IMG/VR virus record: IMGVR_UViG_3300033143_003488
Span: 1 to 46,698 of that record
Direction: 5' to 3' (one strand)
DNA: 46,698 bases
Origin: a virus
The position numbers and the translations under genes are program-made. The notes under the pieces are model-generated. The model did not search any database and was not told where the DNA came from. It saw only the letters and a program-made list of their open reading frames with translations. Shown one piece after another: positions 3,197-5,451 of this stretch; position 1 is the first letter of the stretch; the number at the start of each line of letters is the position of its first letter.

Positions 3197-3505
3197 TTAT
3201 ATGGCTATAAACCCGTCTTCTACAGCTATCAGTCCGGAATCTTTTATTAATTTTGTTTCCATCAATTTCTTTATTGAGAAACTTGGGTGGTACCACTCAC
3301 CATGAAGTCTTCTTTTTTTCATCAACCTATGGAACCTGCCCTCAAGGCTGTAGGCTGATTTTTCATCTTTACATGGGATTATACGTATTAACTCAAGCTT
3401 GCAAGGGTTTCCAGTTTGCAGAAATTTCATTCTTTTTTCTGGGTTTCCACTTTTCCCTATTTTTACTGGGCCCTTCTTCCCAGACTTCATAAAATAAACA
3501 AACAT
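3197..3505 (-). CDS. T5orf172/MUG113-type GIY-YIG-like protein
   Basis: A 102-aa protein. The ATG at 3505 (MFVYFMKSGKKGPVKIGKSG) is chosen because GGAGG lies just upstream; a longer in-frame reading to 3592 has no ribosome site. The N-terminus is a variant GIY-YIG core: FVYFMK replaces the GIY strand and VKIGKSGNPEKR supplies the second element and the conserved Arg. This is the T5orf172/MUG113 pattern. A catalytic Glu is plausible in 'SLEGRFHRL'. Such proteins are predicted DNA nucleases or DNA-binding modules. It is the first gene of the leftward operon, directly downstream of the noncoding region. Confidence 0.7.
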   Translation of the reverse strand: MFVYFMKSGKKGPVKIGKSGNPEKRMKFLQTGNPCKLELIRIIPCKDEKSAYSLEGRFHRLMKKRRLHGEWYHPSFSIKKLMETKLIKDSGLIAVEDGFIAI

Positions 3506-3745
3506 ATTTTTCCTCCGGACACCACGACATAAAGTATGTTGGTGCATGGACAGACAACAACTTACTTTTATTTGCTTTGAACTGCTTATCAATACCTTAA
3601 CTTATTGCAACCGAGAACTTTGCGGCGTTGGTCACTCCGCTATAGGGCATCCCCCTCCCCTCTATCATCCATGAATCCTGCATTTAGTGGTTGTTTAAAA
3701 CGGCCATACTTAAATCCGAGTTAAAATATTGTAACGCTCTGCGTA

Positions 3746-3953: not shown

Positions 3954-3983
3954 TTGTGCTTTCAATCAACAATTGTTTATAAT
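3954..3983 (+). promoter_or_regulatory. Sigma70-type promoter of the large RNA
   Basis: TTGTGC (3954-3959), 18-bp spacer, consensus TATAAT (3978-3983). The predicted start is about 3988-3991, exactly where the first RNA hairpin begins. The palindrome AACAATTGTT fills the right end of the spacer, next to the -10, so a bound repressor would block it. Confidence 0.75.
3968..3977. promoter_or_regulatory. Putative operator, copy 1
   Basis: Perfect 10-bp palindrome AACAATTGTT inside the spacer of the large-RNA promoter. The wider 17 bp (3967-3983) is identical, in inverted orientation, to 5484-5500 next to the Cro/YdaS-like gene. I infer that this repressor binds both. Confidence 0.6.
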
Positions 3984-4405
3984 GTCGGTCTCGTTCGGAG
4001 ACATAAACCATGGTGACATGGGGAAAGGGGTGGTTATCTACTAAGCCCCGCTACTTGTAGTATTCCGAGCAAGCTGAGTCCGTGGGGTATGCCCCAGTTT
4101 CGCTTCCTGAGCGGAAATAAGTGTGAGTAATTAGTTCTGGCTGTTAGGCATAATGACCAAAAGCCATGGTCACCGTGAGGTGAAGCCCAGAACGAAAGCA
4201 AGCTCTGATTGGACAAAGAGTAGAGCATTAAGTCAGAGCCGACAGGTAAGGGCGTGTGTTCAGTTGATTTGGTTTGTGCCGCAGGGTACTAAGCCGAAGA
4301 AAACAGTAAACCCTATATGTTATTGGGTTAACAGAAGATGTGTGGCATTCCGTAGGGGCAACCCGATGGAACCACAGAGTAGCGCACTTCTTCGTAGATA
4401 TGCAT

Positions 4406-4481
4406 TGTTTTATCGCTCAGTTGGTTAGAGCGTATCCATTTTAAGGATGTTGTCGGGGGTTCGATTCCCTCTAAAACACCA
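4406..4481 (+). tRNA. tRNA-Lys (anticodon UUU)
   Basis: Full cloverleaf seen. Acceptor TGTTTTA 4406-4412 pairs with TAAAACA 4472-4478, and CCA is encoded at 4479-4481. D stem GCTC/GAGC with a GG-containing loop. Anticodon stem TATCC/GGATG with loop ATTTTAA, so the anticodon is TTT at 4440-4442. Variable loop of 5 nt. T stem GGGGG/CCCTC with loop TTCGATT. It lies inside the large structured RNA and must be cut out of that transcript or have its own promoter, which I do not see. It would decode AAA/AAG. Confidence 0.93.
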
Positions 4482-4672
4482 ATCGCAAACGAACTTGAAA
4501 TTCGTTAAACGCAAAGACGCTGCTCAGCGTGAAGTGAAAATGGCTTAAATCTACAGCCTTCGGGTAATGTAGAACCCTTGAAATCGCAAGTGGACAGGGT
4601 TTTGTCAAGAAGAGCACTATCGAGGTTAGCTGCCGAGGTAGGTATCGAGAGGACAGAATAGCGTCACGTCAT

Positions 4673-4703
4673 AGGTCAATGCCGGACCTGTAAAAAAAAG
4701 GCA
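4673..4703 (+). other. H-type pseudoknot in the large RNA
   Basis: Stem 1 is AGGTC 4673-4677 with GACCT 4685-4689. Its loop carries TGCC 4680-4683, which can pair with GGCA 4700-4703 across a linker containing eight consecutive A (4692-4699). An A-rich third loop is typical of stable H-type pseudoknots. Read from sequence by eye. Confidence 0.55.
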
Positions 4704-4800
4704 GTCATGCAGTTTTACTTCGGGGCCCTCGGGACTGGAGTGGACAGAAGGGAAAGGTTAGCCGCAAGCTGATTCGTAACCCCTTTAAAGGAACTGTACC

Positions 4801-4837
4801 AGCCAGTGTAGTCTCAGCTGGCTTAACTTTTAATTTT
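4801..4837 (+). terminator. 3' hairpin / probable weak terminator of the large RNA
   Basis: AGCCAG (4801-4806) pairs with CTGGCT (4818-4823) and is followed by an interrupted T-rich tract (TTAACTTTTAATTTT). It is a weaker terminator than the one at 3878, so some read-through into the gene at 4851 is likely. Confidence 0.5.
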
Positions 4838-4850
4838 CTGGAGAGAGGAA

Positions 4851-5087
4851 ATGAATTTAACAATAAATATAGATAACAATTTGAAAGCGGTTCTTTTAAC
4901 GAACACCGGCAAAGCAGATATTAATTCAGAAATAAGACTATTTGAAGGGAAGATAAAAAAACTTCAAAACAGAATTAAAAAATCTCCGGATGGTAAATAT
5001 TGGTTGTTTGTTGATAATGCCGATAGCACACGTAGATTTGGGATAGCGCTTAAGATTAAAAATAAAGTGATATCATTAAAGTTTTAA
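4851..5087 (+). CDS. Small hypothetical protein downstream of the large RNA
   Basis: A 78-aa protein with an excellent ribosome site (GGAGAGAGG) before the ATG at 4851. The middle is a lysine-rich helix (EGKIKKLQNRIKK), flanked by beta-prone segments. It is expressed by read-through from the RNA promoter unless it has its own, and is followed by a strong terminator at 5147. It may be a partner of the large RNA, since it is basic and in the same transcription unit, but that is inference. Family not recognised. Confidence 0.65.
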   Translation: MNLTINIDNNLKAVLLTNTGKADINSEIRLFEGKIKKLQNRIKKSPDGKYWLFVDNADSTRRFGIALKIKNKVISLKF

Positions 5088-5146: not shown

Positions 5147-5177
5147 AGCCGGAGAAGTTATGAGCTCTGGCTTTTTT
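5147..5177 (+). terminator. Intrinsic terminator after the small gene
   Basis: AGCCGGAG (5147-5154) pairs with CTCTGGCT (5165-5172), 8 bp with one G-U, then six T. It ends the rightward unit and overlaps the last bases of the convergent repressor gene. Confidence 0.8.
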
Positions 5178-5451
5178 ATGGCCACGGAATGTCCTGTCTC
5201 AATAATTTACGATTAACACCTGATAATCTTTCAACGTATTCAAGATATTCGATTGGAATACCGCACTTATCCCTGTTTACCCAAGCCCACACCGAACCAA
5301 TTTGCAGTGGGCGCTTAATTAAATCATCTTCAAACAGAATATCAGTTATCTTTCTGGCTGTTTCAGCCTGCCCACCAATAGCCTCGATTGCAGCTGCAGC
5401 CTGCAATCTATTAGCTTCGTACTTCTTTTCATAAATTTCTTTTATGGACAT
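5176..5451 (-). CDS. Cro/YdaS-like transcriptional repressor
   Basis: A 91-aa protein. A helix rich in Ala and Glu is followed by 'GGQAETARKI' and 'QIGSVWAWVNRDKCGIP', then 'YLEYVERLSGVNRKLLRQDI'. This is the layout of small Cro/YdaS-family helix-turn-helix proteins: 'W' in the recognition helix, then an ending close to 'v.r.dLRpDi'. Known members bind short palindromes as dimers and repress early phage promoters. The gene faces away from the recombination operon, and AACAATTGTT lies between them; the same palindrome sits in the large-RNA promoter. Target assignment is inference. Start: ATG at 5451, with a weak AAGAG upstream. No integrase is in the window, so a lysogeny role cannot be claimed. 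Confidence 0.75.
   Translation of the reverse strand: MSIKEIYEKKYEANRLQAAAAIEAIGGQAETARKITDILFEDDLIKRPLQIGSVWAWVNRDKCGIPIEYLEYVERLSGVNRKLLRQDIPWP

Follow-up and report, generated by a model that had tools for sequence, protein, structure and literature searches.

A GOLLD RNA in a viral genome carries a tRNA-like linker domain that has mostly lost its acceptor end across its clade

Introduction

The DNA analysed here, referred to as the window, is a stretch of 46,698 nt from a viral record (IMG/VR IMGVR_UViG_3300033143_003488). Its plus strand encodes, at positions 3988–4838, a GOLLD RNA of the already known kind that holds a tRNA in its linker. The comparison of this RNA with its relatives is best explained, with a probability that we put at roughly 0.6, by a single GOLLD transcript that would form a cage and retain a tRNA-shaped linker domain which is not matured; a role of that domain as bait is the likeliest use but a much less certain one.

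The GOLLD RNA env-38 has been solved by cryo-EM as a 14-mer hollow cage with its linker inside (Kretsch 2025, PMC12286853). Since the 3′ region of env-38 begins at residue 421, its disordered 42-nt linker (residues 497–538) starts approximately 76 nt into that region (PMC12286853). tRNAs in GOLLD linkers have been reported already, the legend of Fig. 4c of that paper describing an opened cage that exposes covalently linked tRNAs (PMC12286853), and a published suggestion is that such tRNAs may be cargo. For a mycobacterial GOLLD the RNA was seen and expression of the embedded pseudo-tRNA was undetected (PMC6582537). Because of these two reports a tRNA inside a GOLLD is not new in itself; what is new here is comparative evidence, drawn from sequences, for a single tRNA-bearing clade, a kept tRNA fold, a lost acceptor end and a swap of the tRNA module.

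Results

The window encodes a GOLLD RNA

A cmscan search in E-value mode matches positions 4333–4820 (+) to the full GOLLD model RF02032 (1–416 of 416) with 131.4 bits and E = 5e-36. The curated gathering cut-off of this family is 150 bits, which is a curation threshold and not a feature of the RNA, and because the window scores below it default scans miss this GOLLD: in the gathering-threshold Rfam scan the tRNA was the sole passing match. The score below the cut-off is likely due to divergence together with a 75-nt insert. Other members of the tRNA-carrying clade score above it (G096, 190.5 bits; G022, 180.4 bits; G085, 159.4 bits), and L204, a copy of the window RNA with an identical 3′ region, lies inside this clade, which has 99/94 support and includes above-cut-off members.

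A preliminary description, made from the letters alone, had proposed a member or analogue of GOLLD or ROOL and a search of Rfam for large RNAs as a check. That search identifies a GOLLD, and the tree places it among the tRNA-bearing ones. ROOL RNAs likewise form giant cages in phages, enclose a variable linker and are often encoded close to tRNA genes, but no ROOL model matched the window in cmscan up to E = 10. The long structured RNA with a tRNA midway, as first described, is confirmed by the RF02032 match, by the fold of the 851-nt region (z = −3.28, with none of 20 shuffles equally stable), whose minimum-energy structure contains the tRNA cloverleaf, and by two programs that call the tRNA. 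The remark that it holds no convincing protein gene was also borne out, the longest ORF inside 3988–4838 being 91 aa and running into the tRNA. A blastn search against annotated phages gave no match.

The ends at 3988 and 4838, and with them a total of approximately 850 nt, are likely ones, placed from a candidate promoter and a terminal hairpin. The candidate promoter (3954–3983, +) consists of TTGTGC at 3954–3959, an 18-nt spacer and TATAAT at 3978–3983. It had been called a consensus promoter, which holds for the perfect −10 element; the −35 element agrees at only three of six positions, and the candidate is not among the promoters listed by a promoter scan of the window.

The variable 5′ domain (3988–4332, +), the putative cap, begins with the hairpin GTCTC-GTTCG-GAGAC and lies outside the Rfam model, with blastn homologues in L270, L202 and L203. 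When 4005–4345 is aligned with three relatives, 29 of the 73 predicted pairs show at least one two-sided compensatory change among only four sequences. Inside the conserved 3′ domain (4333–4820, +) the tRNA-like domain is followed by a small hairpin, AACGAA/TTCGTT (4488–4506, +), resembled by hairpins in L202 and L203, and then by the GCAAAGAC motif (4511–4518, +), where comparison places the re-entry into the GOLLD 3′ domain. This motif is almost always GCRAAGAC in tRNA-bearing GOLLDs, in part because later scans were built on it and so selected for it. The terminal hairpin (4801–4823, +) has the conserved loop TGTAGTCTCAG, and the UGUARUCUCA terminal loop typical of GOLLD reads TGTAGTCTCA at 4807–4816. 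The window RNA has in common with RF02032 GOLLDs the full 3′-domain match, this loop, a separate and less conserved structured 5′ domain, a phage location, its length (many members exceed 800 nt) and a linker tRNA of the kind in the literature. It differs in falling below the cut-off and in belonging to the tRNA-bearing clade, whereas the env-38 linker is too short for a tRNA.

Outside the RNA, an ORF of 78 aa (4851–5087, +) has no Pfam match and one viral relative only, in the same phage species. Near the GOLLD gene lie genes for a YdaS-like regulator (5176–5451, −) and a T5orf172/MUG113 domain protein (3197–3592, −), and RecT and YqaJ-like genes are found downstream. A RecT search of GTDB genomes for the host of the window phage gave no relative, and one large protein of the phage, searched in phages, gave one weak match.

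The linker tRNA is confined to a single clade

Relatives were collected with a pattern for the terminal hairpin, which is blind to the tRNA and gave at least 120 viral loci; RF02032 was found in 108 of the 124 records searched, a number that includes four RecT relatives, three of them with a GOLLD. Among the 109 GOLLDs compared (the window included, 105 from the tRNA-blind scan), ARAGORN finds a linker tRNA in 15, L203 has a degenerate one, and all lie on the GOLLD strand. A second scan, for a T-arm plus GCRAAGAC, gave approximately 36 further tRNA-bearing loci, but because it selects for the tRNA, the frequency of the tRNA can be read from the first scan only. The terminal-hairpin pattern itself misses many clade members. 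A second viral pattern with a longer gap added no GOLLD matches.

A tree built from 84 3′ domains groups the tRNA-bearing GOLLDs in a single clade: they make up one side of a branch with 99/94 support and are joined only by L261, in which the tRNA is cut off at the end of the locus and the T-arm pattern matched. Every clade member observed has the tRNA, at a mean 3′-domain identity of 58%. It starts 63–76 nt into the 3′ domain (73 nt in the window), at the place of the linker in the cryo-EM structure, and tRNA-less GOLLDs have an AT-rich linker at the same place.

Many GOLLDs sit in phage tRNA clusters, and the clade also occurs in bacterial genomes, mostly Gammaproteobacteria, often within tRNA arrays. 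One region of Microbulbifer flavimaris (L478, 387–7743) has 22 predicted tRNAs, a tRNA-bearing GOLLD, an HNH endonuclease and an RtcB RNA ligase (two overlapping frames). Among tRNA-less GOLLDs, the order tmRNA–GOLLD–tRNA-Met recurs in L145, L147, L149 and L227, the tmRNA lying approximately 560–660 nt upstream of the 3′ domain and the tRNA-Met 11–17 nt downstream. At L193 (G038:33000–35636), where the GOLLD match is unusual in length (580 nt), the 3′ half of a tRNA (T-arm, CGGGATC-G-CCA) precedes what seems to be its matching 5′ half, GATCCCGTAGCTGAGT, an order that a permuted or interrupted tRNA would have.

Most embedded tRNAs keep the fold and lose the acceptor end

Embedded elements were parsed outward from the T-loop without use of the acceptor stem, and the free tRNAs of the same contigs were parsed identically. 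The first set compares 45 distinct embedded elements with 295 free tRNAs. The four inner acceptor pairs are formed about equally (3.76 versus 3.79), whereas the three outer pairs fall to an average of 1.64 from 2.87 in the free tRNAs (p = 3e-31) and an in-register CCA is found in 1 of 45 against 262 of 295. Specifically, pairs 4–7 are paired in 91–96% of the 45 elements and pairs 1–3 in 53–58%, compared with 40–49% after shuffling, pair 2 being above chance (p =.006); only five elements have the full 7-bp stem. The result was replicated with 43 new distinct viral elements obtained by a third, three-part pattern: there the outer pairs are at or below chance (.33/.44/.44, shuffled.50/.48/.51), the inner pairs reach.88–.98, and an in-register CCA occurs in none of the 43 elements against 561 of 591 free tRNAs. 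Elements with an in-register CCA are those of L238, L487 and L488. The shuffles and rank tests count related sequences as independent, so the p-values are overstated, but neither the difference from free tRNAs nor its replication depends on them.

The rest of the fold is kept. The D, anticodon and T stems are 98–100% paired, most with many pair types, and compensatory changes hold them. Elbow and U-turn letters are nearly invariant (GG.99, T33.99, T54T55C56 and A58 1.0); the T-loop letters alone are no evidence, because the search anchor fixes them in embedded and free groups alike, but at the D-loop GG, at A14 and in the anticodon U-turn the conservation is about that of free tRNAs. The anticodons take 27 states, with NUU over-represented and an excess of U35 and U36, and their tree signal is weak (61 parsimony changes, 66.8 when shuffled). 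Anticodon loops of 6 or 8 nt occur in 9% of embedded elements, and Leu, Ser or Tyr anticodons are found on bodies with a short variable arm. Two candidate contacts were rejected. A kissing interaction between the anticodon loop and a CTTAAT/CTAAT element of the 3′ domain was unsupported by eye in approximately 100 members, and a TTGC/GCAA helix closing the linker around the tRNA, present in L160, L161, L199, L200 and L235, is absent in too many others to be a general feature.

The copy in the window (4406–4479, +) is called tRNA-Lys(TTT) at 4406–4479/4480 by Rfam and ARAGORN, in agreement with the tRNA-Lys(UUU) first proposed. Its acceptor stem, TGTTTTA/TAAAACA (4406–4412/4472–4478), is paired at 7 of 7 positions. 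The encoded CCA that had been placed at 4479–4481 does not hold, being one base out of register with this stem: position 73 is C4479 and positions 74–76 are CAA (4479–4482, C-CAA), and a CCA would be in register only with a 6-bp acceptor stem. In the window's own clade of 15 elements, pairs 2 (.67, p =.016) and 3 (.80, p =.003) are above chance and pair 1 is not, while an in-register CCA is found in one. The erosion of the acceptor is graded, since the window stem is complete and its own clade keeps pairs 2 and 3. Random outer pairing predicts that approximately one element in ten is paired 7/7 by chance, so the window's stem proves neither way. The sequences make the case for a retained mimic appear strongest in the large clade and weaker for the window's own copy.

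The tRNA slot is exchanged apart from the GOLLD body

L505 and L509 differ by one substitution in the compared GOLLD body (approximately 180 nt of 5′ and 325 nt of 3′ sequence), yet their tRNA cores are just 61% identical, which shows that the tRNA slot is exchanged, or diverges, apart from the body. L326/L321 and L244/L548 show a similar, less clean pattern. The contigs around L505 and L509 are approximately 82–84% identical; in this pair the flanking DNA seems less conserved than the GOLLD gene, or the gene the more recently exchanged of the two. Across the clade, tRNA and body distances are still correlated (Mantel 0.31, above all 2000 permutations). L202 and L203, the nearest relatives of the window, fill this slot with other tRNAs, an Ile(UAU) and a Lys(CUU)-like one respectively. 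Comparison of the 5′ half, the tRNA and the 3′ region with L204, of the same phage species, shows a single difference, at tRNA position 9 (window 4414), which is C in the window and A in L204.

Discussion

In the explanation that we favour, 3988–4838 would be transcribed as a single GOLLD RNA. By analogy with env-38, positions 3988–4332 would form the cap and 4333–4820 the ring of a homo-oligomeric cage, and the linker, close to where the 3′ domain starts, would carry the tRNA-shaped domain into the lumen, in up to 14 copies; we place it there because the linker lies inside the solved env-38 cage. The earlier proposal that the tRNA is displayed on the RNA fits this linker position. The other half of that proposal, a released tRNA, is unsupported for the class, in which the outer acceptor pairs and the CCA are lost and the remaining fold is kept by covariation; for the window's own copy, with its complete acceptor stem, a release may still occur.

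Because the tRNA fold is kept and the acceptor end mostly lost, the domain probably belongs to the cage for good and is no excisable tRNA gene; we read it best as a tRNA mimic, mostly acceptor-less, that the cage holds on a tether. The clade's linker tRNA would then stay in the RNA permanently instead of being matured, with selection keeping the L-shape (elbow, anticodon arm and inner acceptor pairs) and leaving the amino-acid end unmaintained, a suggestion that is weakest for the window copy. The elbow and anticodon arm might be offered as bait that, in an infected cell, binds or occupies partners recognising tRNAs (host tRNA nucleases, tRNA-modifying enzymes or ribosomes, for instance), and module exchange would change the bait. 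We regard any such bait role as tentative. It is a possibility on the weaker side that throughout the clade a swappable mimic with an opened acceptor end has been selected inside the cage as a bait or sponge for tRNA-binding or anticodon-cutting proteins. The Microbulbifer tRNA array with RtcB counts in favour of a retained mimic. Against it count the varied anticodons, whose 27 states are unexpected for a bait with a single target, and the ability of bacteria to add CCA by enzyme.

The most obvious alternative is that host RNase P and 3′ nucleases excise a working tRNA-Lys, the GOLLD transcript being its precursor and store. The complete acceptor stem of the window, the cloverleaf in its minimum-energy fold, the three loci with an in-register CCA and the many GOLLDs within phage tRNA clusters would all suit such a cargo. 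However, two independent sets have nearly random outer pairs and almost no CCA, unlike free tRNAs of the same contigs, and neither the 6- or 8-nt anticodon loops nor the Leu, Ser and Tyr anticodons on short-variable-arm bodies are what working tRNAs would lead one to expect. The mycobacterial GOLLD, which resembles the window in its internal tRNA-like sequence and differs in sitting in a mycobacterial tRNA array and not in a free phage, was detected with no separate tRNA product seen (PMC6582537). We consider excision unlikely.

Loss of the acceptor end and CCA, in a linker that is otherwise variable and where ARAGORN misses L203 and a few others, could also be signs of decay: a tRNA gene or an integration site might have become trapped in the linker as a relic that serves no role. 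Such a relic is very improbable given a pairing of 91–100%, with many compensatory changes, in the D, anticodon and T stems and the inner acceptor stem, despite a mean 3′-domain identity of 58%, and given that no clade member seen lacks the tRNA. The fold could also be conserved by a constraint that has nothing to do with tRNA mimicry, such as filling or spacing of the lumen. The domain might be a stiff, compact plug that has no tRNA-binding partner and sets the spacing of the linker or helps GOLLD to fold during transcription. Its fixed position, conserved fold, free sequence and anticodon, as well as the AT-rich linkers that replace it in tRNA-less GOLLDs, are as such a plug would have them. 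Yet any hairpin could serve this purpose, whereas conservation at the D-loop GG, A14 and the U-turn is as strict as in free tRNAs, NUU anticodons are over-represented and the observed exchange brings another tRNA fold; we think a purely architectural role improbable.

A retained mimic would have parallels in other RNAs. Plant-virus tRNA-like structures keep their acceptor end, which the GOLLD domains mostly lose. Bacterial Y RNAs mimic tRNAs, according to a reference cited in PMC9569102. As far as these descriptions go, both build a tRNA-shaped domain into a larger RNA whose gene is no ordinary tRNA gene, though neither is a GOLLD and their surroundings are different.

For annotation, the comparison is a warning that many "tRNA genes" inside GOLLD RNAs probably do not deserve the name. 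Should the linker tRNA prove to be, for the most part, an acceptor-less mimic selected for its elbow and anticodon arm, the question about these phage RNAs would shift from which tRNA is delivered to what binds a tRNA inside an RNA cage.
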